Shown here: positions 5,698 through 50,364 of the stretch, one piece after another
Numbering within the stretch: position 1 is the stretch's first letter
How the letters are laid out: every line of letters begins with the position of its first letter
NCBI RefSeq assembly: GCF_000374365.1
Contig: NZ_KB894120.1
Location: 62,001 to 126,000, forward strand
DNA: 64,000 bases
From: Bacteroides gallinarum DSM 18171 = JCM 13658
Lineage (GTDB): Bacteria > Bacteroidota > Bacteroidia > Bacteroidales > Bacteroidaceae
Direction: 5' to 3'
The notes under the pieces: generated by a model
Seen by the model: only the letters and a program-made list of their open reading frames with translations
Told to the model about the DNA's origin: nothing
The model's database searches: none
Made by a program: the position numbers and the translations under genes

Positions 5698-7428
5698 ATG
5701 AAAAAGAATTTCTTATTCACAGTAATGGCATTCTTCTTGGGGCTATCGGCAGCCTCATGCAGCCAGGACGAGATTGTCTCAAGCAACGGACAAACAGGAG
5801 GAGAAACCGTATCGGTAGCGGTAAACATCCCCGTGAACGACCCCGTAACACGCGCCGTACCCAATATCCCCGACGGATACAAATTACGCTGCATCCTGCA
5901 ATTAGTAAACTCAAACGACAATAGCGACATTGCAGACGGCAGACATGTAATGGAGGTTCCGGCAGGAAGCGAAAAGGTAACTTTCACTTTCAACGCACCG
6001 AGTGACCCGTACAAATGCCTTTTCTGGGCAGACTATGTAAAGAGCGAGGTAGCAGACGTTGCCTCTGCAGAAGCGGACAACATCTACAATACCACTGACT
6101 TAAAAGCTATCGGTTACACAGCAAATGCAGGCGATGAGATGTTCAAGGGCGATGTAGCCGATGCATTCTACGCCTGCACATTAGACGCAGTAACCGGCAA
6201 CGGTGCGCTTAACTCCGTCAACCTGGTACGTCCTTTTACCAAAATCACATTCAAATCCACAGACGCAAGCTATAAGGACTACACTAAAATCGTAGTAACC
6301 GACCTGCCCGCCCCGACAGGGTTCAACGTCATGACCGGGACTACTATCGGATATGCCGGTAAAGGCAAGTATGAGAGTAATAAAATCACTTCCGCCGAAC
6401 TTACTATCGACGAAAGCGGAAATTGGTTCAGCGCATACCTGTTCACAAGCCAGAATGCAAGTACCCTGGGTGAAGGTAACGATATAAAGTTTCAATTGAT
6501 AAATGCAGACGGCTCCAAGACAGATGAACTTTACTTCGACGGCAGCAACATACCTTTAACCCCGAACCACGAAGTAAGTGCAGACGTACAACCTCAAAAG
6601 GACGGAGACACCTCGATAGATGTCATCTTCCCCGGCGAAATGGAGAACCCCGATAAATTGGCGGTAGGCGACTATATTTTGAAAGACGGGACATGGAGCA
6701 GAGAATATTCGGAAAATGTGGTTGCTATCGTATGGAAAATGGTAACAGATAAAGGAGCGGCGGTAGGCGATGCAGCCGGTAATTATACCGCAGAGAATAA
6801 TGGGAGTGACCTGACTGCCAAAGAAATTGTAGGGTATGCATTCGCAATCAATGGGGTCGAGCGTTCTTATTTCGCAGAAAACAAAGAGAAAATAGAGGAA
6901 TTCAATACGACTTTTGCTGCAAATGACACAGATTTTGATTTTACTAATGTCGGAGATGACTATTTTTCAATAGCCAACTCAAATACATTTTTATCTTCTT
7001 TACAAACGGGTAACGCTAACTCCGCCCTTCTTACCAAGTATAATGAATTCTGTACGAATAATGAGATAACCGGTGATAATACCAGTAAATGGTATATCCC
7101 CTCATTCAGCCAATTGTTAAACGTCTATACACTACTATTAGGATATGAATCAGAACCAGCCAATCCTACCATTTCCCAAGCATTCGAAAATGCAAGCGGA
7201 CTTGTGGCAGGTAGTAGAACAGCAGACTGCTATCATCTTACAACAACTATACCGGCAGAAAATAAATGCGCTATGCTAAATACAAATGGTGAAAGCGGAA
7301 CTTATACATTTACGAATAACAATAATAAAACAATAAGCTTAAACGGTGGTGTCCAAGCATATATCCGCCCCGTTCTCACCATTTTCAACAGTATTCAAAA
7401 AGCAACAAACCAACAAACTAAGAACTAA
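5698..7428 (+). CDS. DUF6562-type lipoprotein with C-terminal DUF1566-like module
   Basis: A lipoprotein signal ends at Cys21, followed by acidic residues (CSQDE) as in surface-exported Bacteroides lipoproteins. Residues about 30-300 form the fimbrillin-like region, with KLRCIL, CLFWADYV, YNTTDL and RPFTKITF. From about residue 320 (GDYILKDGTW) a second module carries KWYIPSFSQL (Lys464 onward) and ends in an IRPVLTIF strand. This pattern resembles DUF1566/Lcl-C-terminal-like domains, some of which bind glycosaminoglycans. A hairpin and then a lyase gene follow. Binding of the PUL polysaccharide at the surface is inference. The second half of the gene is more AT-rich than the first. Confidence 0.6.
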   Translation: MKKNFLFTVMAFFLGLSAASCSQDEIVSSNGQTGGETVSVAVNIPVNDPVTRAVPNIPDGYKLRCILQLVNSNDNSDIADGRHVMEVPAGSEKVTFTFNAPSDPYKCLFWADYVKSEVADVASAEADNIYNTTDLKAIGYTANAGDEMFKGDVADAFYACTLDAVTGNGALNSVNLVRPFTKITFKSTDASYKDYTKIVVTDLPAPTGFNVMTGTTIGYAGKGKYESNKITSAELTIDESGNWFSAYLFTSQNASTLGEGNDIKFQLINADGSKTDELYFDGSNIPLTPNHEVSADVQPQKDGDTSIDVIFPGEMENPDKLAVGDYILKDGTWSREYSENVVAIVWKMVTDKGAAVGDAAGNYTAENNGSDLTAKEIVGYAFAINGVERSYFAENKEKIEEFNTTFAANDTDFDFTNVGDDYFSIANSNTFLSSLQTGNANSALLTKYNEFCTNNEITGDNTSKWYIPSFSQLLNVYTLLLGYESEPANPTISQAFENASGLVAGSRTADCYHLTTTIPAENKCAMLNTNGESGTYTFTNNNNKTISLNGGVQAYIRPVLTIFNSIQKATNQQTKN

Positions 7429-7474
7429 GTATAAGAAAACAACAGGATAACACAACAAACATAAGCTCTATCCA

Positions 7475-7520
7475 TTCCCGCCCCATTCATTATAAAATAA
7501 ATATGGGGCGGGATTTCTTT
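7475..7520 (+). terminator. Intercistronic GC-rich hairpin with T-rich tail
   Basis: TCCCGCCCCAT (7476-7486) pairs perfectly with ATGGGGCGGGA (7503-7513), and TTTCTTT follows. It has the form of a rho-independent terminator, but the next gene starts only about 45 bp downstream with no recognisable promoter box between. Partial read-through (attenuation) is therefore likely. Confidence 0.7.
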
Positions 7521-7560
7521 AATTAATTCCTCATATACAGCTACTAACCCCACAAAACAT

Positions 7561-10134
7561 ATGAAAGCACAATCCCGTCCCCTCCGCCGCCATACCGTAC
7601 GTCTGTACCTCGTTGCATCACTGCTGTTACTCTCCGCCTGCCGGGACGACGCCCTACCCGTGCCCCCCACAGCCCCGGATACCGAGGAAGAGGAAACTTA
7701 CGAGCTGCCCGACGCCTTCCATGACAGCGAGCGTACCACCCCCTATCCCAAAGCCGATAACGAACTCTACCTGAACCCTCCCCCCTTCATCGTACCCGAA
7801 AATATGAAAACGGACGAACTGCTCCAGTTCGAACTGTCGCACGACGAAACATTCCCCGAAGGCGAAACCCGGCAGTCCGAGCCCAAGCCCTGGAACATCT
7901 ACGGGCCGCACTGCAAGCTCGAAACGGGCACATGGTACTGGCGCTTCCGCAGCGTAAACGCCGACGGAACACCCGGAGAATGGAGCCGGAACTACTCCTT
8001 CGAAGTGAAAGCCGAAACTCCCGTTTTCGTTACCCCCGGCTTCGAAACTTTCCGTACGAACGCACCGCACTCCTATCCGCGCCTGTTCTGCTACTTAGAC
8101 CCCTACATAGACGAAGCACGCCGTACCGTATCATCGCACCGCGAATACAAATCCCTGCTCAGCCGCGCCCGTAATGCTATCGAGGCAGACTATTCCGCCA
8201 AGAACCCGAATGAAGACGCCGAACAACTGAAAGTCCACATCCAGTCGCTCTACCACGCCTACCACCTCACCCGGCAAGATGAATATGCACAACGGATGCA
8301 CGAGCTGCTGCACAGCATGCTCTCCTATCCGGTAAGCGATAACCTCCTGTTTTCCGCCAACTTCACATCTACCAATATCGCCGTTTGCTACGCCATGATT
8401 TACGACCTGCTGTACAACGAGCTGACGGCCGACGAACGCCTGGGTGCAGAAACCATAATGATGCGTATGCTACGCAAGCTCACTCCCCAAATGTGGGGCT
8501 CGCAGGAAAACAAGCTAACACACAACCACTTCTGGCAACAAAACCTGCGCATCTACCTCCAATGCGCCTTCCTGCTCTACGACCACCCCTCATACAGCGC
8601 CGAAGTACTGCCTATGCTGGAGTATTATTACGAACTGTGGGCTGTCCGCGCCCCCGCCACGGGATTCAACCGCGACGGAGCATGGCACAACGGCATCGGC
8701 TACTTCTCCGCCAACCTCACCACCCTACACTATATGCCCATGCTCCTGTCTTACATCACCCGCCAGGACTTCCTGCAACACCCCTGGTATCACAACGCCG
8801 CACGCGCCATGGTCTACACCTGGCCGCCCCACTCCCAAAACAGCGGCTTCGGTGATTCCAGCGAGAAAAAAGGCGATACCCCCGCCCGCCAATACGCCGC
8901 CTTTGCCGACTTCCTGGCACGCGAGCTGGGCGACCCCTATGCCGGCTGGTACGCCTCCGAGTGCGACAACGAGCTGAAAGACGATATCGAGCTGCGCCTC
9001 TACCGCATCTGCTCCCCACGCACCTACGATACCGAACTACCCGCCGACCTTACCAAAATGGCATGGTATCGCGACATCGGCGAAGTAAACATGCACAGTT
9101 GCCTTAATACGACGGAAAAAGACGTGAACCTCTCGTTCCGTTCCAGCACCTTCGGCTCGGGCAGCCACACCACAGCCAGCCAAAACGCCTTCAACCTGCT
9201 GTACCAGGGCAAAAACATATACCGCAGTTCGGGCTATTACTATAATTACCATTCCGCCCATGCAATCATGTCCTACCGCCACAGCCGGGCGCACAACACC
9301 CTGCTGGTAAACGGCATCGGACAAACATTCAGTCCCAAAGGCTACGGCAACATCATGCGCGCCATGGAAGGTGCGCACATCACCTACTGCCTGGGCGATG
9401 CCTCGAAAGCCTACAACGGCATTACAGACGAGAAAGCCTGGCTGGAAAACTTCGAGAACATCGGCATCGAGCAAACCCCGGAATACGGCTTCGGCACTAC
9501 CCCGATCACCAAGTACCGCCGCCACGTACTCATGCTCCACCCCGAAGGAACCGTACTTATCTACGACGAGCTGGAAGCCTCGGAAGCCGTCACCTACGAC
9601 TGGCTGCTGCACAGCCCCTCGCAGATGTTCATCAACCGCGAACTGCTGACGGTCAACAGCCGGAACAAGGAAACCGGAGCCACCGCCGTAACGCAACTGT
9701 TCTGCAACGACCCCGTAACGCTGTCCGTCACCGACCAGTTCTACGAACCGCCTATCGACCCCGTAGCCTACCCCAACCAATGGCATACCACGGCGCGCAT
9801 CGAAGGCAAGGCAAAGACACGCGTCCTCGCCATTATCCAGGTGAACCCCGACGGCGTATCACCGCAAATCATCCGCCGTGCCGGAAACAAGCTCACCGTA
9901 GGAAACTGGACGGTCGAAGCCCAACTGGACGCTTCACAATCCGCCTCACTCCGTGTTACGAACACCGCCGCTCCCGTATGCTTCGACTACGGCAAGGAAA
10001 ATCCCGTATTGGACGGCGTTCCCTACCCGAGAGAGTACAGCATGTCGTCCCTGCTCTACGATGAAACGGACAGCGGATACGAAGCCGTGGAAATGACCGA
10101 CCAACTGCCCATATCCACCCGTGTAGCCCGTTAA
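7561..10134 (+). CDS. Heparinase II/III-type polysaccharide lyase lipoprotein (DUF4962 type)
   Basis: A lipoprotein signal ends at Cys27 (LSACRDD), and acidic residues after Cys suggest surface exposure. An Fn3-like domain spans about residues 55-150 (YLNPPPFIVP to WYWRFRS). The (alpha/alpha)-toroid carries HNHFWQ (His321-Trp325) and FNRDGAWHNG (Phe369-Gly378) followed by GYF. The beta-sandwich carries GSHTTASQNAF (His536) and YRHSRAHNT (Tyr572-Thr580). His in the NHxW and SHT motifs and Tyr after the NG motif are the residues expected to catalyse beta-elimination in this fold. The 857-residue length fits PL15-type exolyases. It follows two DUF6562-type lipoproteins, the same association as at 48640-54711. 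Heparin/heparan or another GAG-like uronate polymer is the likely substrate class. Confidence 0.82.
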   Translation: MKAQSRPLRRHTVRLYLVASLLLLSACRDDALPVPPTAPDTEEEETYELPDAFHDSERTTPYPKADNELYLNPPPFIVPENMKTDELLQFELSHDETFPEGETRQSEPKPWNIYGPHCKLETGTWYWRFRSVNADGTPGEWSRNYSFEVKAETPVFVTPGFETFRTNAPHSYPRLFCYLDPYIDEARRTVSSHREYKSLLSRARNAIEADYSAKNPNEDAEQLKVHIQSLYHAYHLTRQDEYAQRMHELLHSMLSYPVSDNLLFSANFTSTNIAVCYAMIYDLLYNELTADERLGAETIMMRMLRKLTPQMWGSQENKLTHNHFWQQNLRIYLQCAFLLYDHPSYSAEVLPMLEYYYELWAVRAPATGFNRDGAWHNGIGYFSANLTTLHYMPMLLSYITRQDFLQHPWYHNAARAMVYTWPPHSQNSGFGDSSEKKGDTPARQYAAFADFLARELGDPYAGWYASECDNELKDDIELRLYRICSPRTYDTELPADLTKMAWYRDIGEVNMHSCLNTTEKDVNLSFRSSTFGSGSHTTASQNAFNLLYQGKNIYRSSGYYYNYHSAHAIMSYRHSRAHNTLLVNGIGQTFSPKGYGNIMRAMEGAHITYCLGDASKAYNGITDEKAWLENFENIGIEQTPEYGFGTTPITKYRRHVLMLHPEGTVLIYDELEASEAVTYDWLLHSPSQMFINRELLTVNSRNKETGATAVTQLFCNDPVTLSVTDQFYEPPIDPVAYPNQWHTTARIEGKAKTRVLAIIQVNPDGVSPQIIRRAGNKLTVGNWTVEAQLDASQSASLRVTNTAAPVCFDYGKENPVLDGVPYPREYSMSSLLYDETDSGYEAVEMTDQLPISTRVAR

Positions 10135-38466: not shown

Positions 38467-41400
38467 ATGAAAAAACACATTAAATTACTTTGTGTAGTTA
38501 TGATGTCTTTCATTTGTTTCGGGGTCTTTGCACAAGGACAGCGAAGAACCATTACAGGTACGGTGAAAGATACGAATGGAGAATCTATTATCGGCGCCAA
38601 TGTTTCCATTGAAGGGACCACCCTCGGAACAATAACCGATATAAACGGAGCGTTTAAGTTAGAGGCTCCGGAAAATGGTACACTCATTATCTCATTTATC
38701 GGGTATGAGAAACAAGAAATCAGTATCAATAAAAAAACTAACTTCACAATTACATTAAAAGAAGACAGCAAAATGCTTTCCGAAGTAGTGGTAACAGCAT
38801 TAGGTATTAAACGGGAAAAGAAAGCATTGGGATACGCCATGCAGGAAGTAAAAACGGATGCTTTCTCGGAAAACCGCTCTACCAGCGTCTCAAATCTGTT
38901 GCAAGGTAAAGTAGCCGGCGTACAGATATCACAGTCCGGTAGCGGTGTAGGCGGACCGACCCGTATCGTTCTTCGCGGTCTGAACTCTTTAAGCGGCAAT
39001 AATACGCCACTCTGGGTAGTCGACGGGCTTCCTGTCCTGGATAATTCCAACAGTAACACACAATTCTCATATTCTTCCGGAGCCGCCGACATCAATCCGG
39101 ACGACATCGAAAGCATCTCAGTATTGAAAGGCGCCAACGCAGCCGCCCTTTACGGTTCAAGAGCACAGAACGGTGCGATTGTCATCACTACCAAAAAAGG
39201 TAAGGAAGGAAAACTGCAACTGGAATACAACGGCTACGTTTCCATGAGCAAGGCTTACGACTCCTATGAGTTCCAGGATGTATACGGGCAAGGTACCAAC
39301 GGACAATATGCACTGGAAGCCAGCGGTTCGTGGGGACCGAAAATGACAGGACAAACAATCCCCAACTGGCGTAAAGAACTCTATGGAGACGAATCCTACA
39401 AAGAGTACGCCATGCTGCCACAGAAGAATATAACCGATGACTTCTTCCGTACAGCCCTGAACTATGTAAACTCCGTCAGCGCAACCGGGGGCAACGAAAA
39501 AATGAATGCCCGTTTTTCCTTCACCGATACCCGCAACCAGGGCATCCTGCCTAATGAATCCATGAACAAGCAGAATTACAACCTGAATGTGGAAATCAAG
39601 AACAAATACCTGACTATCGGTGGTAAAGTATCCTATTTCCGCGAGAAAGTAAAAAACCGTCCGGAAACCTTTTATAGCAGTGTATGGTCAAACCTCATCC
39701 GTTTACCGAGAAGCATCCGCCTGCAGGACTTACAGAACCCGATAGGAATCGACGGCTATGTTGTAAACTGGCATGGCGAAGACACTGAATACAGGAACCC
39801 TTACGGACTCATTGCAAACGGCAACGGTAATGAACTGAACAGAGACAGATTCCAGGGGCAAGCAACCATAGTGGGTAACATCACCGACTGGTTGAAAATA
39901 ACCGGACGAATCGGTCTGGACCGAGTTTCAGACAATGTAGAAACCTATACACCTTACCATTCAAAGGCAGAAAGTCCCAAAGACCTGATGACAGTCACCA
40001 ACTCTACCAGTGAAGAACTGAATGCAGACTTGATGCTGAACATCGACAAACGGTTCAAAGACTTCTCTCTGACCGCCAACATCGGTATCGCCACCAACTA
40101 TAACAAGTTCAAATCCCTGGCAGGCGAAAGCGGCAAAGCCATTATTCCCAATTTCGTAGCATTAAGCAATGGTGAAAACAAGCTCGCTATACAAGACTTC
40201 TCATCGAAACGCGTCAACTCCATTTTAGGAAATGCCACATTGGGATACAAGGGATATGCTTTTCTCGATGTTACAGCCCGTAACGACTGGTCGTCTACCC
40301 TGCCTTCATCCAATTGGTCGTACTTCTATCCGTCTGCCAGCCTAAGCGGCATCTTGTCCGACATATTCCAACTGCCGAAAGAATATTTCTTAAAAGTACG
40401 CGGCTCCATAGCTCAGGTAGGTAATGACACAGCCCCTTACGCGCTCTACAACGTATATACACTGGAGGCATTAGGCAACCATACGGTAGGCAGTAGTTCC
40501 AGCACCTATCCGCTGGCCGACCTTAAACCGGAGAAAACCCTATCCTGGGAAATCGGTGCAGACTACCGCATGTTCAACAACCGCTTAGGTATAGACTTCA
40601 CTTATTACCGGTCTACCACTACCGACCAAATTCTATCCATGACCGTTCCCGGTTCTTCCGGATATGCCAGCAAGAAAATCAATGCCGGCAAAATGGAAAG
40701 CAAGGGCGTGGAATTGATGATAACCGGAACGCCTATCCAAACCAAAGACTGGCATTGGGACATAACCCTGAATTGGGGTAAAAATACGACACGCAACATC
40801 GAGCTGGACGAAAAGAACAAACGCTATGTATTTCCGCTCACTACAAACGTACGTGTAGGCAAAGTCGTTATTGACGAAGGCGGTAAATTCGGCGACATCG
40901 TATCCACCGCTTACAAGAGAAATGAAGACGGACGCATCCTGGTAGGCGACAACGGCCTCCCGCTCATCGACACCAAATCCGAAAAAGTCATCGGCAACAT
41001 GATGCCCGAATGGACAGGCTCTTTCGGCACCACACTCTCCTGGAAAGATATCGTATTCAGCGCACTCATCGATGTAAGATACGGCGGGCAGTTCCTTTCA
41101 ATGACCGATGCCTACGCAACCGGCGCCGGTAACTCCAAAAGGACGTTGAACGGACGCGACGGCATGGTAGTAGACGGTATCGTCGAATCGACCGGACTGG
41201 AAAACACCAAACAAGTAACGGCCCAGGAATACTATGCAACCATAGCCGGCACCTATCCCGTAGGAGAAGAATTCCTGCACGATACCACATACGTAAAACT
41301 GCGTGAGCTCTCTATCGGCTACACCCTGCCCAATATATGGTTCAGAAACACTCCGATAACCAATGTAAAAGTATCCATTGTAGGGCGCGACCTGTTCAAT

Positions 41401-41526
41401 ATCTACAAAGCAGCTCCCGTCAATGCCGAATTCGCACAAAACAGCCAGGACGTATTCCAGGCCTTCGAACTCGCCGCCCTTCCGTCGACACGAACCATAG
41501 GTTTCTCACTTAACGTAAAATTCTAA
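38467..41526 (+). CDS. SusC/RagA-family TonB-linked outer membrane transporter
   Basis: This outer membrane barrel imports glycan oligosaccharides together with its SusD lid. A signal peptide (about 1-22) is followed by a CarboxypepD_reg-like domain (GTVKDTNGESIIGANVSIEG), the SusC-type TonB-box segment SEVVVTALGIKREKKALGYA, a plug (LQGKVAGVQI, LWVVDGLPV, SVLKGANAAALYGSRAQNG) and a barrel ending in TIGFSLNVKF. The 1019-residue length is usual. The SusD gene begins 6 bp after its stop. The upstream lyase and downstream GH29 suggest import of lyase products. Confidence 0.96.
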   Translation: MKKHIKLLCVVMMSFICFGVFAQGQRRTITGTVKDTNGESIIGANVSIEGTTLGTITDINGAFKLEAPENGTLIISFIGYEKQEISINKKTNFTITLKEDSKMLSEVVVTALGIKREKKALGYAMQEVKTDAFSENRSTSVSNLLQGKVAGVQISQSGSGVGGPTRIVLRGLNSLSGNNTPLWVVDGLPVLDNSNSNTQFSYSSGAADINPDDIESISVLKGANAAALYGSRAQNGAIVITTKKGKEGKLQLEYNGYVSMSKAYDSYEFQDVYGQGTNGQYALEASGSWGPKMTGQTIPNWRKELYGDESYKEYAMLPQKNITDDFFRTALNYVNSVSATGGNEKMNARFSFTDTRNQGILPNESMNKQNYNLNVEIKNKYLTIGGKVSYFREKVKNRPETFYSSVWSNLIRLPRSIRLQDLQNPIGIDGYVVNWHGEDTEYRNPYGLIANGNGNELNRDRFQGQATIVGNITDWLKITGRIGLDRVSDNVETYTPYHSKAESPKDLMTVTNSTSEELNADLMLNIDKRFKDFSLTANIGIATNYNKFKSLAGESGKAIIPNFVALSNGENKLAIQDFSSKRVNSILGNATLGYKGYAFLDVTARNDWSSTLPSSNWSYFYPSASLSGILSDIFQLPKEYFLKVRGSIAQVGNDTAPYALYNVYTLEALGNHTVGSSSSTYPLADLKPEKTLSWEIGADYRMFNNRLGIDFTYYRSTTTDQILSMTVPGSSGYASKKINAGKMESKGVELMITGTPIQTKDWHWDITLNWGKNTTRNIELDEKNKRYVFPLTTNVRVGKVVIDEGGKFGDIVSTAYKRNEDGRILVGDNGLPLIDTKSEKVIGNMMPEWTGSFGTTLSWKDIVFSALIDVRYGGQFLSMTDAYATGAGNSKRTLNGRDGMVVDGIVESTGLENTKQVTAQEYYATIAGTYPVGEEFLHDTTYVKLRELSIGYTLPNIWFRNTPITNVKVSIVGRDLFNIYKAAPVNAEFAQNSQDVFQAFELAALPSTRTIGFSLNVKF

Positions 41527-41532
41527 ATAAAC

Positions 41533-43140
41533 ATGATTATGAAATTACATAAAATATTAATCATACTACTCTCTGCCATCACTATCGGCAGTTGCACAAA
41601 CGGCTTTGAAGAAATGAACAAAGACCCAATGGCAGTCAACGAAATATCTCCCAGCTTGTCACTGCCCAATATGCAGTACCACGGTTTCCACATCGTCTAT
41701 GGCGATTACCAAAGAGCCGCTCTGCTATATTCTTTCCTATATTGCCAGTATCTTGCCAATACAAGCAGTTCTTTCACCTCGGGCAATTACGTATTCAACA
41801 CTTCATGGGCCGAACGCGGGCTCTGGACTCCCTACTACCAGCAAATGATAAAAAGAATCCGCGAAATAGAACCCGCACTGGAGAATCATCCGGAATACAA
41901 CGACATGTATCAGATTATGCGTATCAACGTAGCTATCAGTACCATACGCATGACAGACACTTTCGGTGACATTCCTTACTTCCAAGCCGGGAGAGGAGAA
42001 ACCCTCATCCCCTACGACAGTCAGAAAGATATTTATTACGACGTGTTCAACGAACTGACCGAAGCCGTTACAGAGTTAAGGCAGAAAAAGAGTAACCAAC
42101 TCCAATACGCAACCGAAGATTTGATTTACCAAGGCGATGTAGATAAATGGATAAAACTGGCCAACTCATTACGCCTGCGTGCCGCCATACGACTCTCCTT
42201 CATCGACCCGGACAAAGCCAAAGCCGAAGGCGAAGCTGCATTGAAGGAATCCCTTATAGCCTCTAACGATGACAATGCAGGTGTAACTCCTCCCCAACCG
42301 AATGTTTGGGCAAATCCGTTATTGCGTAGCTTGGTAGTCGATGAATCCCGGGCCAGCAAAACCATGGTCGATATACTCGCAAATTACGGTGCAGTGGCCG
42401 ACCCGCGTCTTACCTTAATCCTCTCTCAAAGCGGAGCATGGGTAAAAGGAGAAGCAGACGCCGTACAATACCGGGGAGTACCCAACGGACTGCCCGTTAC
42501 GGAACTCTCACTGCCCGAATATGATAATAGTCACAACTCCAGTATATGGGGATACATGTGGGGATATGACTGGAACTCCGCCGCAAAAGGTTCTAACGTC
42601 TCCAAACCCAACACCGACTCCAATTTTACCCCTTTGGGACTGATGAACTATTCGGAAATATGTTTCTTGAAAGCCGAAGCAGCCCTGCGCGGTTGGCAAG
42701 GAGCAGGAGATGCCCGGGCAAACTATGAAGAAGGTATCCGCGCCTCGTTCGAAGAAATGAGAAAACTGGCTCCTGCAGGCTCTTACTCCACAACCGATGA
42801 CAATGCCTATATTACAACCGGAAAAGTAGCCTGGAACGATGCGGACGATTTCGAAACCAAGTTAGAAAAAATCATCACACAGAAATGGATAGGAATATAT
42901 CCCAACTCGGAGGAAGCCTGGGCCGAATTCCGTCGTACCGGATATCCCAAGCTAAATCCCGTCAAGCAAAGCCTGGAACCTACGATTAACCCGGCAAACA
43001 ATGAATTTATCAAGAAATTGCGCTACGTGGACAATGAGCTGAGCAACAACAAGGAATATGCCACAGACCCCACACTAAACAACGGCCAGGGCGACGGCCT
43101 ATCCGTTCGCGTGTGGTGGGACACCGCCCGGTATAAATAA
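41533..43140 (+). CDS. SusD-family surface lipoprotein (SusD-like_2 type)
   Basis: It is the extracellular glycan-binding lid of the SusC transporter just upstream. The lipoprotein signal ends at Cys21 (TIGSC). An alternative ATG two codons later (41539) gives the same mature protein. Helical repeat sequence with YQQMIKRIREIE, RMTDTFGDIPYF and a C-terminal KIITQKWIGIYPNSEEAWAEFRRTGYP block is typical of the SusD-like_2/RagB class. The 535 residues are normal. A terminator-like hairpin follows. Confidence 0.93.
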   Translation: MIMKLHKILIILLSAITIGSCTNGFEEMNKDPMAVNEISPSLSLPNMQYHGFHIVYGDYQRAALLYSFLYCQYLANTSSSFTSGNYVFNTSWAERGLWTPYYQQMIKRIREIEPALENHPEYNDMYQIMRINVAISTIRMTDTFGDIPYFQAGRGETLIPYDSQKDIYYDVFNELTEAVTELRQKKSNQLQYATEDLIYQGDVDKWIKLANSLRLRAAIRLSFIDPDKAKAEGEAALKESLIASNDDNAGVTPPQPNVWANPLLRSLVVDESRASKTMVDILANYGAVADPRLTLILSQSGAWVKGEADAVQYRGVPNGLPVTELSLPEYDNSHNSSIWGYMWGYDWNSAAKGSNVSKPNTDSNFTPLGLMNYSEICFLKAEAALRGWQGAGDARANYEEGIRASFEEMRKLAPAGSYSTTDDNAYITTGKVAWNDADDFETKLEKIITQKWIGIYPNSEEAWAEFRRTGYPKLNPVKQSLEPTINPANNEFIKKLRYVDNELSNNKEYATDPTLNNGQGDGLSVRVWWDTARYK

Positions 43141-43159
43141 TTCCGAAGTAATTCTGCTG

Positions 43160-43216
43160 AAACGAGGGTATATTATGTAACCGGACAAGATTACATAGCA
43201 ACATACCCTCGTTTTT
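43160..43216 (+). terminator. Compound hairpin between SusD and GH29
   Basis: AAACGAGGGTAT (43160-43171) pairs perfectly with ATACCCTCGTTT (43203-43214). Inside, ATGTAA (43175-43180) pairs with TTACAT (43191-43196). TTTT follows. The next gene begins 35 bp later without a visible promoter box, so partial termination is likely. Confidence 0.75.
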
Positions 43217-43250
43217 AAGAACAATACGAAACCTGAAAAATCAAACCGCC

Positions 43251-44909
43251 ATGAACATCAAAACCCTACTACTCACCCTCTCCTGCTGTACCCTCACCGC
43301 ACAAGCGCAGCATGACGACTTCGGGCAAGACGCCCTTATCAACCCCAGTGCGGCAACCTTCGATTTCAGTATCGCACCGGGTCCCATAAAGCCTACCGAT
43401 GCATCTATTGCAACACACTACCAATGTCCCGAATGGTTCCGCAACGCCAAATTCGGTATCTATATGCACTGGGGAATCAACTCCGTTCCCGGCTACGACG
43501 GACATTACGCACGGTGGATGTACTGGTACCAGGAACCGGATTCCAACTTACGCAAATACCCCATACTGGGTTATAGAACACATGCTCCCAAGGTATACCG
43601 ACATCACCTGAAAACTTACGGACATCCCTCCAAGTTCGGCTACAAAGACTTCATACCGATGTGGAAAGCCGATAAATTCAATGCCGACTCACTGGCGACC
43701 TTCTACAAGGAAATCGGAGCTAAGTTCATCGGTGTAATGGCCGTTCACCACGACAACTTCGACCTATACGACTCAAGCCACCAACCCTGGAATTCCGTAA
43801 ACATGGGTCCCAAGCTGGATATCGTAGGTGCATGGCAGAAAGCATGCAAGAAAGTAGGCGTCCACTTCGCCATTTCCTCCCACCTCAGCAATTACTGCCA
43901 CGAGCACATGTTCTACCAGGGTACCGGTGCCGACCCCGAAGGCGCCTACGCCGGAGTGCCGTACGACTATATGAATCCCGCTTACGAAGGGCTCTACGGT
44001 AAACGCACCCCCGACCGCATCATGCGCCTGGAACCCGAATTCGCCCAGTCATGGTATCTCAGAACCAAAGAACTGATAGATAAATACGAACCCGACCTCC
44101 TCTATTTCGACGGCCCGCTCCCCAACGGCATCTACGGCCTGCAACTGGCGGCGCATTTCTACAACAAAAACCTCTCTCATCAAGGTATCCAGAATGGCGT
44201 ACTTACCATTAAAAGAGTGAGAGACGGCTTTACGATAGACCGTGAATGCTCCGGTGAAGACGATTTGCAGAAAAAGCCGTTCCTGGTGGACACAACCGTC
44301 AACCCCGGCTGGTTCTACATGGGCAATTCACTGAACATCAGTAAAGAAGGAGGAGATGCCGGCATGGCATCCGTAGCCGCAGGAAATACCGAAGACAAAC
44401 TACGTATGACCGCCGGCCAGATTGTAGACAACTTAGTGGACATCGTCAGCAAGAACGGCAATATGATGCTCAATGTAGGCCTCCGTGCCGACGGCAGCCT
44501 GCCCGAAACCTTCCGCAACGAATTAGTAAAGATAGGCAAATGGCTGAAACTGAACGGAGAGGCTATCTACGATACCCGTCCTTTCAAGGTATACGGCGAA
44601 GGAACATTCTCAACCAAAGACCACGGGCAGAAATACGCTGACTATCTATACACATTCACTGCAAAAGACATACGCTTCACCACCAAAAAGAATGCATTAT
44701 ACATCTTTACACTGGACTGGCCGGGAAACAACGAAACAATCAAAATACAGAACCTGAGCAGCAAAGAGCTAAAAAACATACAGTCGGTTTCTTTCCTCGC
44801 CTCGGGAGAAAAAGTGAAATGGAGACAAGACGAAAACGGATTATACATCACAACCCCTGACCGCCCGGCCGGAGAATATGCCTATGTTTTTAAAGTAACA
44901 ACCGACTAA
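43251..44909 (+). CDS. GH29 alpha-L-fucosidase
   Basis: A signal peptide (about 1-20) precedes the catalytic domain with FGIYMHWGINS (His73), VMAVHHDNFDLYDS (His166-His167) and PDLLYFDGPLP, with Asp287 as the expected nucleophile. NMMLNVGLRADGSLP and a C-terminal beta-sandwich follow. At 552 residues it is somewhat longer than the other two GH29 proteins, with extra sequence after the HWG motif. It ends the plus-strand arm; the mirrored cassette begins about 100 bp later. It likely removes a fucose or fucose-like sugar from the imported oligosaccharide. Confidence 0.88.
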   Translation: MNIKTLLLTLSCCTLTAQAQHDDFGQDALINPSAATFDFSIAPGPIKPTDASIATHYQCPEWFRNAKFGIYMHWGINSVPGYDGHYARWMYWYQEPDSNLRKYPILGYRTHAPKVYRHHLKTYGHPSKFGYKDFIPMWKADKFNADSLATFYKEIGAKFIGVMAVHHDNFDLYDSSHQPWNSVNMGPKLDIVGAWQKACKKVGVHFAISSHLSNYCHEHMFYQGTGADPEGAYAGVPYDYMNPAYEGLYGKRTPDRIMRLEPEFAQSWYLRTKELIDKYEPDLLYFDGPLPNGIYGLQLAAHFYNKNLSHQGIQNGVLTIKRVRDGFTIDRECSGEDDLQKKPFLVDTTVNPGWFYMGNSLNISKEGGDAGMASVAAGNTEDKLRMTAGQIVDNLVDIVSKNGNMMLNVGLRADGSLPETFRNELVKIGKWLKLNGEAIYDTRPFKVYGEGTFSTKDHGQKYADYLYTFTAKDIRFTTKKNALYIFTLDWPGNNETIKIQNLSSKELKNIQSVSFLASGEKVKWRQDENGLYITTPDRPAGEYAYVFKVTTD

Positions 44910-45012
44910 ACACAGAGTTTATGAAACACCCGGAACATATTTCCCCTGGACATATAACCAACACCAACATCGCCCTCCCCCGAATTCGGATTACAGATAT
45001 GAGTTATCGCTT

Positions 45013-45034
45013 TTTTGTCGTCACTCGTAACTTT
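45013..45034 (+). repeat. Left terminal inverted repeat of the cassette
   Basis: Its 22 nt match the reverse complement of 48511-48532 at 20 positions; the differences are at nucleotides 8 (G/A) and 17 (A/C). It contains GTCGTCACTCG. Confidence 0.7.
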
Positions 45035-45090
45035 CAGCGATTACCACCTGATAATAAAACAGTTAACAAGTGACGAGAAGCGTTACGACG

Positions 45091-45117
45091 GGTGACGACC
45101 AGGCATCGGTCGTCACC
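45091..45117. repeat. Left hairpin of the GTCGTCACT family
   Basis: GGTGACGACC (45091-45100) pairs perfectly with GGTCGTCACC (45108-45117) around a 7-nt loop, and TGTTTTT follows on the plus strand. It could terminate plus-strand read-through from the GH29 gene and is the counterpart of the hairpin at 48420-48462. Confidence 0.75.
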
Positions 45118-45140
45118 TGTTTTTCATAGTATTATCGCAT

Positions 45141-45764
45141 CTACTGCCCTGTAACCTCCTTATTTACAGCCTTTACGTACACCTTGTGCGACCCCTGCCC
45201 CAATGTCGTCAAAAGCCCCTTCTTCACCAGCAGATTGAGGTCATTCAGCGCCTTATTCTTCAAAAGCCCCGTAATTCCGCTGTAATCCTTGCGGGTAATG
45301 AAAGGATTCGCTTCCAGAAACGCGCACAACCTACGGTAACGCTCCGCACCGCCGATGTCCGCACTATGCCTGAAACCGTACCCTGCCCTGACACGCTCCA
45401 CGAATCCCGCACACTGCTTGCGGAAGCCGGGCGACACCCGGAAACGCACCTTGCCGAAGAATACCGTCTGCGCATGGATTTCTTTCTTATCCATGACGGG
45501 ACGTGCCGCCAGCCCCGCCGAAAAGTAGCCCATATCGCCCAACTGTACATGATGCCCCTCGGACAGATAATAGGAGATGCGGTCTTCCAACGCCGCAAGC
45601 AGCCCCTCGATATCTCCGGGAGTGAAACTGGACGCTTGCGAAATGTCGCTCACCAGACGTCCGGTGGTAATCGTCCCCTTGTTCACGATACGTGGATACA
45701 TAGGTTGTAACTCGCCGTCCCCCTTCGGATTGGGCTTTCTTTGAAAATCATACTCTGCTGCCAT
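45141..45764 (-). CDS. HU-like DNA-binding protein
   Basis: The frame stays open upstream to 45902, but the start is set at the ATG of MAAEYDFQRKPNPKG (45764), the usual beginning of this Bacteroides HU-like family; the extra 46 codons lie in a Cys/Arg-rich non-coding-looking stretch. Residues about 15-130 resemble the HU/IHF fold with an N-terminal extension (ITTGRLVSDISQASSFTPGDIEGLLAAL, then GHHVQLGDMGYFSAGL, and KVRFRVSPGFRKQC). A C-terminal winged-helix-like part (FITRKDYSGITGLLKNKALNDL) follows. It probably binds DNA, perhaps the repeats of its own cassette. It is divergent to the VirE-type gene. Confidence 0.75.
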   Translation of the reverse strand: MAAEYDFQRKPNPKGDGELQPMYPRIVNKGTITTGRLVSDISQASSFTPGDIEGLLAALEDRISYYLSEGHHVQLGDMGYFSAGLAARPVMDKKEIHAQTVFFGKVRFRVSPGFRKQCAGFVERVRAGYGFRHSADIGGAERYRRLCAFLEANPFITRKDYSGITGLLKNKALNDLNLLVKKGLLTTLGQGSHKVYVKAVNKEVTGQ

Positions 45765-46312
45765 TGCTTTTTTGTTTTTAGTTTTTATACATTCGAAATT
45801 CATTACAAGCCGCCCGGCTCTGCACAGGTAACGGACAACCGTTACCGGCGGACTGGAAACAATCCGTGCAAGCCTGTACAATCCACGGTATAACCGGTAC
45901 ACTCCCCCGTGAGCCTCCCCAAGAACCGGAAGGCAAATACCGGTCTGTCCCGTAGTTTTCCTTCTTACAGCCCATGCAAAATGCCGTTATACCGATAGTA
46001 AAACCCCGTTTTGCAGTTGCGGGCTCTCCGGGGGACAACTGCGGGCTGTCGGGCCCGCAACTGCAAACCCTCGGGTTCACAACTGCAAAACGGGGTTTTA
46101 GTACTGGTAAAGATACGAAATACACGAGCCGAAATCAAGTTTTCAACGGTTTATCTTTCAATTTTTCTTATTTATTCCCAGAGGCGGTCGGAGCGGATAA
46201 TTCTCGAAATAAAAGGACGCATTTGCTTGCTTTCAGCCCGTTTTATGCGTACCTTGCAGGAGCTAAGAGAAACGCTCTTGCCTTCAACAATTTTCCAAAC
46301 AAACAACCCCGG
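45765..46312. promoter_or_regulatory. Divergent control region of the HU/VirE cassette
   Basis: This 548-base gap between two divergent genes has no convincing gene. It holds a small palindrome, GGTAACGG/CCGTTACC (45827-45834 and 45839-45846), the large nested inverted repeat at 45999-46100 and, nearer the VirE start, AT-rich sequence where a promoter would be expected. No exact TAnnTTTG box was found. Confidence 0.45.
45999..46100. repeat. 102-bp nested inverted repeat with GCAGTTG/CAACTGC motifs
   Basis: Perfect 21-bp arms lie at 45999-46019 and 46080-46100. Within the loop, a second perfect pair, TGCAGTTGCGGGC (46012-46024) with GCCCGCAACTGCA (46053-46065), overlaps the left arm, so the two hairpins are mutually exclusive. 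A further CAACTGCGGG lies at 46037-46046. It may be a replication or recombination site, or an operator for the HU-like protein. Confidence 0.8.
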
Positions 46313-48412
46313 ATGAAAATAACCTTTATCAAGGAAAACCGTGATGCAGGCACGGAGAGTATCAGCACCTGCGATACGAACGCATTCATCGATAAAATCA
46401 AGTCGGAAACCCAGGCGCGGCATATAAGCGGGCTGCGCTCCATGCTGGAATACACGGCGCATGGCAGTAACGGAGGATATGAGCATATCGACAAGCTGCC
46501 CCGCGTATGCCCCGCCATGGAGTACGGACGGACACGCGGAGGCGAACGGCGGATGAAGCGCTACAACGGCATCGTACTGCTGGAAGCGGGCGGACTTTCC
46601 GGGCTGTCCGAGGCGGAACTCGTGAAAGAGCGGGCGGCACTGCTCCCCCAGACCTATGCAGCCTTTACCGGAAGCAGCGGGCGGAGCGTAAAGATATGGG
46701 CGCTGTTCGCCCTGCCGGACGGCAGCCTGCCCGGGCGGGAAGAGGAAATCAGCCTGTTCCACGCCCATGCTTACCGCATGGCGGTGCAGTGTTACCAACC
46801 CATACTGCCGTTTCCCGTTACGTTGAAAGAACCGTCGCCCGCCGACACTTTCCGCATGACGCTGGACGAAACACCCTATTTCGCCCCCGATGCCGTGCCC
46901 TTCTGCCTGGAACAGCCCCCTACGATGCCCGGCGAGCAGACATTCGGCGAACGCAGGCTGACGGAGAAAAATCCCCTGCAACGGTTACAACCGGGATTTG
47001 AGACCTCGCAGACTTTTACCCTGCTGTTCGAAACGGCGCTGAACCGGGCACTGGACGAAGCGGAGAACTGGCAGCGCGACCGCGACGACTTCCACCCGCT
47101 GCTTATCCCCATAGGCGAGCAATGTTTTAAAAGCGGTATTCCCGAGGAGGAGACCGTGCGGCAAGTGATGATACACTACCACCGCCAGGCGGACGAACAG
47201 ACGGTGCGCACCACGTTGCACAACCTCTACCGCGAATGCCGCGGCTTCGGCAAAAATCCTGTCCTCACCCCCGAACAGCGCACGTCGCTGAAGCTGGACG
47301 AGTTCATGGAACGCCGCTACGAATTCCGGTACAACCAGTTGCTGGGCGACCTGGAATACCGCCAGCGCGACTCCGTCCATTTCTATTTCCATGTAATAGA
47401 CCAGCGTGCACGCAACAGCGTGGCAATGGATGCCTTGCAGGAGGGGTTGCGCGTGTGGGACAGGGATGTGAGCCGTTACCTTACATCCAACCGCGTGCCG
47501 CTGTACAATCCGGTAGAGGAGTACTTGTACGGAGTAGGTCGCTGGGACGGCAAAGACCGTATCCGTGCGCTGGCCGACCTGGTTCCCTGCAACAATCCGC
47601 ACTGGCGGGAGCTGTTCTACCGCTGGTTCCTGAACATGGTGGCGCACTGGCGCGGGCTCGGCAACAAGATGCACGCCAACAGCACCTCGCCGTTGCTAAT
47701 CGGTGCGCAAGGATACCGGAAGTCTACCTTCTGCCGTATCATCCTGCCGCCCGAACTGCGCTTCGGCTACACGGACAGCCTCGACTTCGGAAGCAAGCGG
47801 GATGCGGAGATGTACTTGGGACGTTTCCTGCTGGTGAATATCGACGAGTTCGACCAGGTGGGCGCAAACCGCCAGGGATTTCTGAAACATCTCCTGCAAA
47901 AGCCTGTCGCCAACCTGCGCAAGCCTTACGGGAGTAGCATCGGGGAGATAAGGCGCTACGCCTCATTCATCGGCACGAGCAACCACAAGGACTTACTGGC
48001 GGACAGCAGCGGAAGCCGCCGTTTCGTCTGTGTGGAGGTAACGGCTCCTATCGACACGAACGTAACGGTAAACTACCGCCAACTCTACGCACAGGCCATG
48101 CAAGCGGTACGAAGCGGCGAGCGTTACTGGTTCGACGACACGGACGAAGCGATTTTAAAGGAAACGAACCGTGAATTCGAGCAAATCAGCCCGATAGAGC
48201 AGTTGTTCCATTGTTACTTCCGTTTACCGGAACACGGAGAGAAGGGAGAATGGATATCACCGGTACAGATATTGGAATACCTGCATTCCAAAAGCAGCGA
48301 CATAAAACTGACGGACGGGTATGCAAAGCATTTCGGGCGGGTGTTGAAGAAGAACGGGCTGGAGAGCAAACACACGAACAAAGGGATTGTATATCGGATT
48401 GTAAGGTCTTGA
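46313..48412 (+). CDS. VirE/BT4734-type protein: primase-like N-domain, P-loop NTPase, DUF3874-like C-terminus
   Basis: The start is MKITFIKENRD at 46313. The frame is open back to 45974, but that would translate the large inverted repeat, and family members begin at this position. The N-terminal part (about 1-210) resembles the BT4734-like/VirE_N primase-like domain; the expected acidic DxD strand reads LLEAGGL, so primase activity is doubtful. The middle is a VirE-type P-loop NTPase with Walker A GAQGYRKST (Gly464-Thr472) and Walker B LLVNIDEFD (Asp511, Glu512). The last part (ISPIEQLFHCYF, KHFGRVLKKNGL) fits a DUF3874-like DNA-binding end. A role in DNA replication or mobilisation of the cassette is inference. 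Confidence 0.8.
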   Translation: MKITFIKENRDAGTESISTCDTNAFIDKIKSETQARHISGLRSMLEYTAHGSNGGYEHIDKLPRVCPAMEYGRTRGGERRMKRYNGIVLLEAGGLSGLSEAELVKERAALLPQTYAAFTGSSGRSVKIWALFALPDGSLPGREEEISLFHAHAYRMAVQCYQPILPFPVTLKEPSPADTFRMTLDETPYFAPDAVPFCLEQPPTMPGEQTFGERRLTEKNPLQRLQPGFETSQTFTLLFETALNRALDEAENWQRDRDDFHPLLIPIGEQCFKSGIPEEETVRQVMIHYHRQADEQTVRTTLHNLYRECRGFGKNPVLTPEQRTSLKLDEFMERRYEFRYNQLLGDLEYRQRDSVHFYFHVIDQRARNSVAMDALQEGLRVWDRDVSRYLTSNRVPLYNPVEEYLYGVGRWDGKDRIRALADLVPCNNPHWRELFYRWFLNMVAHWRGLGNKMHANSTSPLLIGAQGYRKSTFCRIILPPELRFGYTDSLDFGSKRDAEMYLGRFLLVNIDEFDQVGANRQGFLKHLLQKPVANLRKPYGSSIGEIRRYASFIGTSNHKDLLADSSGSRRFVCVEVTAPIDTNVTVNYRQLYAQAMQAVRSGERYWFDDTDEAILKETNREFEQISPIEQLFHCYFRLPEHGEKGEWISPVQILEYLHSKSSDIKLTDGYAKHFGRVLKKNGLESKHTNKGIVYRIVRS

Positions 48413-48419
48413 TATTTTA

Positions 48420-48462
48420 TTTTTATAAGTGACGACCGAGGTCCGGTCGTCACTTATAAAAA
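48420..48462. repeat. Right hairpin of the GTCGTCACT family, bidirectional terminator-like
   Basis: Perfect 19-bp arms (48420-48438 and 48444-48462) around a 5-nt loop start with TTTTT and end with AAAAA, 7 bp after the VirE stop codon. It contains the same GTGACGAC core as the left-end hairpin. Confidence 0.85.
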
Positions 48463-48510
48463 CAGTTGTCGTCACTCGATAATCAACTATCTATTAATGT
48501 ATTACATCAT

Positions 48511-48532
48511 AAAGTGACGAGTGATGACAAAA
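48511..48532 (-). repeat. Right terminal inverted repeat of the cassette
   Basis: It is the reverse-complement partner of 45013-45034 (20 of 22 positions identical) and carries GTGACGAG and TGATGACAAAA. Confidence 0.7.
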
Positions 48533-48584
48533 TCATTGTTATTTTACATCGGAGATTCCTCCGATACCTTCATTTATCAATATA

Positions 48585-48620
48585 ATACGGGCGGTACGAC
48601 AAGCATCATACCGCCCGTAT
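48585..48620 (-). terminator. Terminator-like hairpin at the end of the minus-strand arm
   Basis: ATACGGGCGGTA (48585-48596) pairs perfectly with TACCGCCCGTAT (48609-48620), 20 bp beyond the stop of the last minus-strand gene. A smaller hairpin, ATCGGAG/CTCCGAT, lies at 48548-48565. Confidence 0.7.
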
Positions 48621-48639
48621 ATAAAATCAACGTGTCAAG

Positions 48640-50364
48640 TTAAAATGTTAAAACAGCACGGGCATGACGTCCGTCATTTGTTTTCCAGGCAGCTGTTTGC
48701 CCGTAATTTTTGGCCGATGTCGATAATCCGACACGGTACAGCTTCCCAATATCCGCCGCTTTGGTCTTTTCAACGCTACTCGACCAATAGAATTGCTCGC
48801 CGTCCAAAGAGAAAGCCTCGGCCACCCCTGCATCGATAAGAGTTTGCATAGACTTCCCGACAGCCAGCAGTTCAACATCGGTAACTACTCCGTTTTCAAC
48901 CTTTACCTCGGCATATTCTTCCGCCAGTACAAGATATTGCTTCACAGCTCCCCAATACCAACCGCTGGTATTGGCAGGCGCTTTCGTCGCTTCAGCCTCC
49001 TCGTAACTGATAATCGCCTGCGCTATCGGATAATCGGGCAATACAATGCTTTCGGATTTAAACGCTTCCGTATTCCCGAATCCCCGTATATCTGTTTTTC
49101 CGTCATTCAATCTGCTACCCGGTTCCCCGTTTACATCAAGAGCCTCCACTTTTGCAGGGGCAATTCTCGTATTCCCGTCAACAATATCTTTAAGAGCTAT
49201 TACCCAGCCGTTCACTTCTTGCAGTTTCTGAACCCCATTAGCGGCAAGATAATTTTCCGCCCTGTCGCCGGAAGCTTTGCCGTCATCATGAGCCACCGCA
49301 AACACGATACCGATACACGAGTTGCCGCTGTCTTCAATGTAAGATGACGAATACGTGCCGTCCGCATAAAAGAAATCACCTACCTTTGCCTTGAGCGGCC
49401 TTGTAGCAATCTCTACACTACCCGAAACCCAGTCATCGACATCGATGTCGTAAGTTATATCGAACTCGGTATCCTCTATCGGAGATTCCGCCATCATATT
49501 ACCGCTGACTTTAATATGCTGGTTACGTATAACAGGTATCAGGCCTGCCGGAACAATAACATGCTGTACACCCTGCTTGGTGGTAAAGCTCAAATGTATC
49601 TCGCCCATATTACGGTCTTCCCCGTCGGCAAAAACATAGGTAGAGAATAAGGTACCGTCCGGTGTCATTTCCGGATTGAAATCCGAAACTGCGTAATTGA
49701 CCGCCACCGCATCTTCTATCACCCTACCGCTACCGGCGTCGAATTTCGCAGCGGCTTCGTAGGATACAGTCAGTCCCCATAACAAATTGAACTCCCGCAA
49801 ATTTTTCTCTAAAACACTTATTTTGGTAAAAGGGCGGAGTAGCTCCGGTTCCAGCACAAGTGCCTCACCGTCTTTTTTCTGTATCTCGCCACTGTAATAA
49901 AAAGCATCGCAAGCCTCATTATCAATCAGGCTATTCATGTCTTTCACCGTAATATTCCTCAAATCGGAAGTGTCATAATACTTATCTGCATAACGGGAGG
50001 TCCCGCCTTCCGTACGGGTGGCAACAGCAGCATCCGCATCGATATAATCCACCCACATCAGACAGTCATAAGAACCGGCATCGACAGCTATATCCAAAGA
50101 CAACTTAGCCGGTTCCGCAACCGGTTCCGCCACGACTTCACTATGACAGACCGTTTCCGCGTTTTCTCCTTTAGTCCGAAGTTCGAGAATACAACGCAAT
50201 TTATGTCCGGCAATATCGGGCTGCCCGGTAGCAATACTTGCCGGAAGAACAGCAGATACATACATCCGGCCGACATCTCCGCCTGATGTGTTATCATCGT
50301 CACTGCACGAAACAAATAAGCTCATGCAGAAAAAAAGTATCAAACCTAAAAAATTCTTTTTCAT
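48640..50364 (-). CDS. DUF6562-type lipoprotein with C-terminal DUF1566-like module
   Basis: A lipoprotein signal ends at Cys20 and is followed by Ser-Asp-Asp-Asp, an acidic stretch typical of surface export. The first half has the family blocks HKLRCILEL, YDCLMWVDYID, KYYDTSDLRNITVKDM, DAFYYSGEI and LRPFTKISV. The C-terminal module begins near GDFFYADGTYSSSY and has SGWYWGAVKQY, FYWSSSVEK and a final HARAVLTF strand, resembling DUF1566/Lcl-like domains. It is the last gene of the minus-strand operon, after a second family member. Glycan binding at the cell surface is inference. Confidence 0.62.
   Translation of the reverse strand: MKKNFLGLILFFCMSLFVSCSDDDNTSGGDVGRMYVSAVLPASIATGQPDIAGHKLRCILELRTKGENAETVCHSEVVAEPVAEPAKLSLDIAVDAGSYDCLMWVDYIDADAAVATRTEGGTSRYADKYYDTSDLRNITVKDMNSLIDNEACDAFYYSGEIQKKDGEALVLEPELLRPFTKISVLEKNLREFNLLWGLTVSYEAAAKFDAGSGRVIEDAVAVNYAVSDFNPEMTPDGTLFSTYVFADGEDRNMGEIHLSFTTKQGVQHVIVPAGLIPVIRNQHIKVSGNMMAESPIEDTEFDITYDIDVDDWVSGSVEIATRPLKAKVGDFFYADGTYSSSYIEDSGNSCIGIVFAVAHDDGKASGDRAENYLAANGVQKLQEVNGWVIALKDIVDGNTRIAPAKVEALDVNGEPGSRLNDGKTDIRGFGNTEAFKSESIVLPDYPIAQAIISYEEAEATKAPANTSGWYWGAVKQYLVLAEEYAEVKVENGVVTDVELLAVGKSMQTLIDAGVAEAFSLDGEQFYWSSSVEKTKAADIGKLYRVGLSTSAKNYGQTAAWKTNDGRHARAVLTF

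Follow-up and report, generated by a model that had tools for sequence, protein, structure and literature searches.

In a 64,000-nucleotide stretch of the Bacteroides gallinarum DSM 18171 genome (contig NZ_KB894120.1, positions 62,001 to 126,000; hereafter the window, whose own numbering is used throughout), the segment 45010-48535 carries an HU-HIG gene and a BT4734_N/VapE/DUF3874 gene (hereafter HU and VirE), which are divergent and the sole genes between two mirrored copies of a structured DNA unit. Each unit, about 118 bp long, has tandem half-sites on its outer side and, beyond a spacer, inverted half-sites on its inner side; a terminal hairpin adjoins the stop codon of the gene next to it, HU on the left and VirE on the right. 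The E-values given below for the units come from two covariance models, R1 and R2, described further on, which both count the two window units among their training members.

45010..45127, + strand: left end unit (R1 E=2.7e-22, R2 E=1.2e-16; also found by repeat search), with outer tandem half-sites at 45013-45034, a spacer, inner half-sites at ~45068-45090 and a hairpin at 45091-45117
45141..45764, - strand: HU-HIG gene, 207 amino acids, with an HU domain and, after it, a C-terminal part (PF18291 E=1.1e-36; TIGR01201 E=7.3e-20)
45990..46109, no strand: array between HU and VirE, imperfect palindromic, with a 57-nt inverted repeat (repeat search; genome matches)
46313..48412, + strand: VirE/VapE-type gene, 699 amino acids (BT4734_N PF08800 E=4.6e-36; VapE-like helicase PF05272 E=1.5e-34; DUF3874 PF12990 E=3.3e-23)
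48418..48535, - strand: right end unit, mirror of the left (R1 E=4.9e-23, R2 E=7.6e-18), with a hairpin at 48420-48462, an inner half-site at 48468-48476 and outer tandem half-sites at 48511-48532

An earlier, sequence-only reading of this DNA had described the same ordered set of elements at both ends in opposite orientation, and the two inverted copies of the unit bear this out, down to the outer 22-nt repeat (45013-45034 versus 48511-48532), of which 20/22 positions are complementary (91%). Its four motif copies per end hold for the left, where GTCGTCACT occurs with at most one mismatch at 45017, 45069, 45091 and 45109; the right end has five, two of them overlapping (48428, 48446, 48468, 48513 and 48520). 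That only an HU-like gene and a P-loop NTPase gene lie between the ends was correct, the array at 45990-46109 being an additional part that had gone unlisted, and the neighbouring genes at 43251-44909 (+) and 48640-50364 (-) converge on the segment as described. The right unit begins 6 bp past the VirE stop codon. With 17 matches in the window, 8 of them outside the ends and about at background, GTCGTCACT exceeds the mean of 9.7 expected from shuffled sequence, 17 being reached in 1 of 100 shuffles. Across the whole host genome the motif alone is not enriched (23 matches versus 32 for the reversed control), so that only the structured unit, and not the count of the 9-mer, is informative. A search of positions 44500-49000 against Rfam returned no family at gathering score, the best of five weak matches being F6 (E=0.016, 30.2 versus 46 bits).

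Structured units and VirE genes across Bacteroides

Pattern and BLAST searches of the host genome (G000; numbers prefixed G, C and L are our handles for genomes, contigs and loci) recovered four structured units without genes. R1 was built on nine units, namely the two window ends, four gene-less host copies, two ends from B. propionicigenes (G143) and one copy from G030, and the broader R2 on 44. With R1, the host holds seven units, the two cassette ends and five gene-less copies, and 36 of 119 Bacteroides genomes contain units at E<=0.01; with R2 at E<=1e-4, 43 of the 119 do. None was found by R2 at that threshold in the 148 other genomes of a 149-genome sample of the order, where the host alone was positive. 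Within the samples searched, the units are confined to Bacteroides and, given the zero matches in those 148 genomes, the whole unit is far from chance. Both stems covary in the 44-unit alignment, with 81% of cells paired and a score of 0.335; shuffles gave 0.179 and slid controls no more than 0.169. Because the stems consist of repeats of one motif, the pattern is as compatible with half-sites for a protein as with a folded strand. The consensus of that alignment showed no GTAG tag, for which no systematic search was made. Genomes had up to 30 units listed at E<=1e-4, a lower bound for the richest, since no more than 30 candidates were scored; G075, a 3.4-Mb genome with at least 30, was the densest for its size among the genomes seen.

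Relatives of VirE occur at E<=0.001 in 89 of the 119 genomes, and strong BT4734/VapE genes (best E<=1e-150, a cut chosen in this analysis) in 46, often several per genome. We oriented 86 VirE loci, of which 62 entered the R2 scan, with the window standing for L001; the 24 left out either repeated listed loci, had short flanks, or were fragmentary or distant. As L046 and L145 are one place, the scan covered 61 distinct loci. A mirrored pair of units was present at 26 of the 62 loci, a left unit only at 12, a right unit only at one and no unit at 23, many of the units counted here being R2 training members. Both units scored E<=1e-3 at 21 of the 26 mirrored loci, and the right unit started between -11 and +48 bp from the VirE stop codon at the scanned loci. 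An adjacent HU gene was found at 15 mirrored loci and none at the other 11, which makes VirE the common gene and HU optional. The number of mirrored loci may be too low, since the 23 loci without a unit include families with visible repeats beyond the reach of R2, as at L131, L133 and L136, where ATGAGAA repeats can be seen left of HU and were missed by the model.

Complementarily, we compared the distribution of both components over the 119 genomes. Strong VirE genes and R1 units co-occur in 31 genomes, VirE stands alone in 15, units alone in five, and neither is present in 68 (p=2e-12); the corresponding numbers for R2 units are 36, 10, 7 and 66 (p=1.4e-14), with p-values that ignore phylogeny and a model, R2, trained partly on the counted loci. 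The link between VirE genes and the repeats is well supported. In one record named a plasmid, pCACC737_3 (NZ_CP059409.1, L299), an HU/VirE cassette that has a left unit adjoins priA and a phosphatase gene; this DNA is possibly chromosomal.

No transposase family in Pfam, NCBIfam or PHROGs matched the HU or the VirE protein, in agreement with the sequence-only reading, which had seen none. Residues K470/S471 and D511/E512 of VirE are invariant in 18 sequences and are its predicted P-loop and Walker B motif, respectively (names assigned in this analysis). The nearest solved chain by both sequence (E=1.7e-6) and fold (E=9.8e-6) is 7pds, annotated as 'Similar to D. nodosus vapE' under a title that names PriRep1 with dsDNA; we take PriRep1 to be of staphylococcal origin and to have a VapE-type replication role. 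Weaker fold matches of the VirE structure model, which is of middling quality (pLDDT 67.7, pTM 0.40), include primase-polymerases, and profile PF08800 confirmed the BT4734-like N-terminal domain. Among 19 HU-bearing cassettes, the correlation with unit divergence was rho 0.75 for DUF3874, 0.69 for the HU domain and 0.70 for the C-terminal part of HU.

Gene-less copies and sites with and without them

The half-site motifs differ among cassette families, examples being GTCGTCAC, GCCGTCAC, GTCAGCAC, ACCCTCAC, GCTCTCAC, TCCTACAC and ATTGTCA. We collected 43 gene-less copies from the matches listed in the genome scans and used them for the motif, gene-end and HU-relic tests. A cassette unit of the same genome was the nearest one for 33 of the 43, compared with a permutation mean of 8.4 and a maximum of 20 in 10,000 permutations, which leave shared descent in place. 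Four of the ten mismatches fall in G072, three in G055 and one each in G035, G029 and the host; G055 has no cassette unit in the reference set, which affects its three. We do not claim a preference for gene 3' ends: 25 of the 43 copies have one on their outer side, judged by crude open reading frame calls and with no background.

The gene-less copies exceed the length of the unit, four G083 copies being 78-95% identical over aligned pieces of up to 603 bp. Fourteen copies from two genomes were examined for the array: all eight from G035 and five of the six from G083 match their own cassette in both left unit and HU-VirE array and do not match its genes, the sixth stopping at a contig end, so that 13 of 14 keep the array. 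A decayed HU C-terminus beside the unit was significant in two of the 43 copies (control, 0), and we restrict the claim to these two because the others, visible by eye in several copies, did not reach significance. By their sequence, the gene-less copies look like amplified internal-deletion derivatives.

In the host, four of the five gene-less units (C9, C15, C16 and C1) have array-like matches nearby, and the HU-VirE array looks like a second dispersed palindromic family. Its host relatives at G000:C62:5801-5908, C6:43956-44103, C14:33836-33987 and C19:613-701 are partly near end units and partly, as it appears, alone; the HU-VirE arrays of other genomes are different palindromes, for example GAAACTTTAGTTTC repeats. 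Three gene-less units of G029 (L207, L208 and L212) sit inside stretches of 1.3-1.6 kb that are mutually 92-97% identical; since their surroundings are near-identical, a larger repeated element carries them, and they were excluded from the boundary analysis.

Several copies and one whole cassette vary in presence between related genomes. Conserved flanks enclose 560 bp around the host C9 copy, whereas G030 has 118 bp between them and G083 has 57 bp; the site of the host C16 copy measures 194 bp in G030, 94 bp in G143 and 122 bp in G083; and the G072 copy L202 was not seen at the matching place in G056, G041 and G117. The metagenome scaffold MT836706 contains a whole cassette with both units and a VirE that is 87.6% identical. 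Its positions 1-601 and 4885-5571 match 7258-7858 and 7883-8570 of G030, where the flanking genes are nearly adjacent, and the extra stretch exceeds the cassette by ~640 bp on the left side. In the host, B. propionicigenes (L038) and MT836706, a related cassette follows three successive genes of the G030 order.

In a phage collection, 356 records hold distant VirE relatives, seven of which cover at least 80% of VirE; the four records inspected are unverified linear metagenome scaffolds. Circular forms, which the sequence-only reading had proposed to look for, did not appear: three scaffolds tested for exact terminal overlap (L295, L296 and L297) had none. L297 (MT838091), an unverified fecal scaffold, carries both units.

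A candidate master-and-satellite system and its alternatives

We see an even chance that Bacteroides has a master-and-satellite repeat system under a VapE-type initiator helicase, with the segment as a 'master' copy; for the movement of such a system we infer the following mechanism. As the initiator helicase, VirE would bind the half-sites of the units, perhaps via its C-terminal DUF3874 part, open the DNA at a cognate unit and drive the copying of DNA enclosed by such units or lying next to one, while HU, when present, would bend or bridge the ends. Gene-less copies with a matching motif would be served in trans, as miniature inverted-repeat transposable elements (MITEs) or repetitive extragenic palindromic sequences (REPs) are by a master gene. 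The ends could be cut and joined by an enzyme of the host, by VirE itself through an unrecognised activity, or through recombination once they have been replicated.

The sequence-only reading had proposed a mobile or selfish two-gene cassette, and had named gene-pair copies without end motifs, or motifs away from such pairs, as evidence that would count against it. Mirrored ends do recur and presence does vary, as it expected; the units, however, are a dispersed family and not private ends. Both kinds of contrary case were encountered in part, 23 of the 62 loci having no unit and 12 a left unit only, with five gene-less copies in the host and many in other Bacteroides, because the unit family is dispersed, HU is not needed and those 12 loci are left-only. 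We favour a master-and-satellite system over a plain refutation because the cassette motif matches the gene-less copies of its own genome.

A number of results weigh against such a system. Besides the incompletely bracketed loci and the overlap of counted with training units, ten genomes with strong VirE genes have no R2 unit, seven unit-bearing genomes, including G030, have no strong VirE, and the association of the two takes no account of phylogeny. G030 retains a short hairpin at the C9 and C16 sites, so part of its absences may be loss; the C9 site of B. propionicigenes also holds a unit; and relatives share some gene-less copies, for example L200. Cassette L111 gave no empty site, the corresponding place in G056 and G041 being occupied by decayed relatives. 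Presence and absence at matching sites could be followed as the sequence-only reading had suggested, but at the compared sites neither a target duplication nor an exact terminus was read, the junctions being too diverged. No significant HU relic accompanies 41 of the 43 gene-less copies. The metal-binding motif I of archaeo-eukaryotic primases is given as hhhDhD/E in PMC5862659; VirE matches the N-terminal profile of the BT4734 family of these primases, and motif I is not conserved, 77 aligned VirE sequences showing no conserved DhD at its presumed place. Finally, a hint in favour of such a system, the divergence of DUF3874 tracking that of the units best among the VirE parts (rho 0.52, partial value 0.23), comes with no significance test.

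The units might instead be non-autonomous and depend for their movement on a conventional transposase or recombinase whose gene lies elsewhere in the genome, with VirE and HU as cargo between two units. The MITE-like behaviour of the gene-less copies would suit this explanation, as would the lack of a transposase-like domain in VirE and HU and the presence of a Y1 transposase gene in the host, G030 and G075. We nevertheless consider it unlikely: no Y1 transposase (PF01797) was found in 7 of 10 unit-bearing genomes, other transposase families not having been searched, and mere cargo would leave unexplained why VirE, with or without HU, recurs as the neighbour of units and why motif families follow the cassette. 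A REP-associated tyrosine transposase (RAYT) is ruled out as the general driver by the same seven genomes without a PF01797 match. The one Y1-type transposase gene of the host lies at G000:C14:3605-3946 (PF01797 E=6.7e-24). Alternatively, dispersed intergenic sites together with a cognate HU-type protein, whose divergence tracks that of the units in the 19 HU-bearing cassettes, could point to chromosomal binding sites of a host system in which HU and VirE organise the nucleoid, control replication or act in regulation, the sites having spread by duplication and selection rather than selfishly. This seems quite unlikely to us in view of the 11 mirrored loci at which no HU gene was found, the 76 of 119 genomes without R2 units, and copies that carry non-functional cassette remains and vary between close relatives.

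We give little credence to HU/VirE acting in conflict (defence) by recognising invading elements, with the units as sites that it marks or titrates. HU-HIG expansions were reportedly proposed as conflict systems, with a predicted link to mobile elements, in work by Burroughs et al. from 2017, and the HU-HIG/VirE neighbourhoods in Bacteroidetes reportedly described there involve the same HU family, PF18291. The several motif families within one genus and the 356 phage records with distant VirE relatives agree with a defence role, but such a role predicts neither units that bracket the genes nor gene-less copies with cassette remains. It is highly improbable that the units chiefly serve HU and VirE as transcription terminators or RNA elements. 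The terminal hairpins do follow directly on the stop codons of both genes, and several have T-runs; a unit of this length, however, has outer tandem half-sites beyond the hairpin, terminators need no motif match to distant copies, and no Rfam family reached threshold.

Going beyond the master-and-satellite system, we suggest tentatively, and with rather less than even confidence, a new class of bacterial transposable element, in which one initiator-type helicase, alone or together with HU, would recognise a unit at each end via family-specific half-sites and copy itself and motif-matched gene-less derivatives into intergenic sites without a known transposase or recombinase. Such an element might, and we are just as hesitant here, be the prokaryotic counterpart of helicase-driven replicative elements. 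The literature searched yielded no description of these units and no stated role for BT4734/VapE genes, to which a motif-matched dispersed partner sequence gives a candidate job, the binding and copying of cognate units. If these genes do move the units, this would be mobility without a known transposase.

Likeness to known systems and genomic surroundings

The system shares with REP/RAYT systems (REPtrons, REPINs) dispersed palindromic intergenic repeats, a master gene between inverted copies and family-specific motifs, and the flanking of a gene by inverted copies of a dispersed repeat, by which a REPtron is recognised, is found here. Unlike in a REPtron, the place of the Y1 tyrosine transposase (PF01797) as master gene is taken by a VapE-type helicase, which may or may not be accompanied by HU, and the two-stem unit of ~118 bp differs from a REP palindrome of 20-40 bp, as sized in PMC3733652. 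The same paper describes CGTC-tagged REPs as palindromic dispersed repeats that also occur in Bacteroidetes and have no dedicated transposase. Compared by description, they resemble the present repeats in being palindromic and dispersed, and the window's motif contains CGTC; they differ in that theirs are approximately single palindromes with 8-9 bp stems and 4-5 nt loops (PMC3733652), and other families here have no CGTC. If genes of this kind can indeed spread structured repeats, that would bear on these REPs and their lack of a dedicated transposase, again as far as the descriptions in PMC3733652 allow the comparison.

Like MITEs alongside an autonomous element, internally deleted copies that keep an end have been amplified here (8/8 in G035, 5/6 in G083). 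Unlike in insertion sequences or transposons with MITEs, no encoded transposase or recombinase was found in the two proteins and no target duplication could be read at the diverged junctions, and unlike MITEs the gene-less copies keep, as far as seen, the left unit and the internal array only. Staphylococcal VapE-type replication proteins (7pds, PriRep1) are the closest solved relatives of VirE, and a VapE-type replication protein (PF05272, 7pds), as in the replicons of Staphylococcus aureus pathogenicity islands (SaPIs) and phage-inducible chromosomal islands (PICIs), is present; unlike in those islands, there is no integrase or packaging gene, only two genes lying between the units. The sites here, at both cassette ends and elsewhere in the chromosome, set the system apart from the staphylococcal VapE system.

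The cassette's region differs in gene content among the host, G030 and B. propionicigenes; in the window this concerns 38467-44909, presumably a carbohydrate-use region with SusC/SusD-like and fucosidase-like genes.

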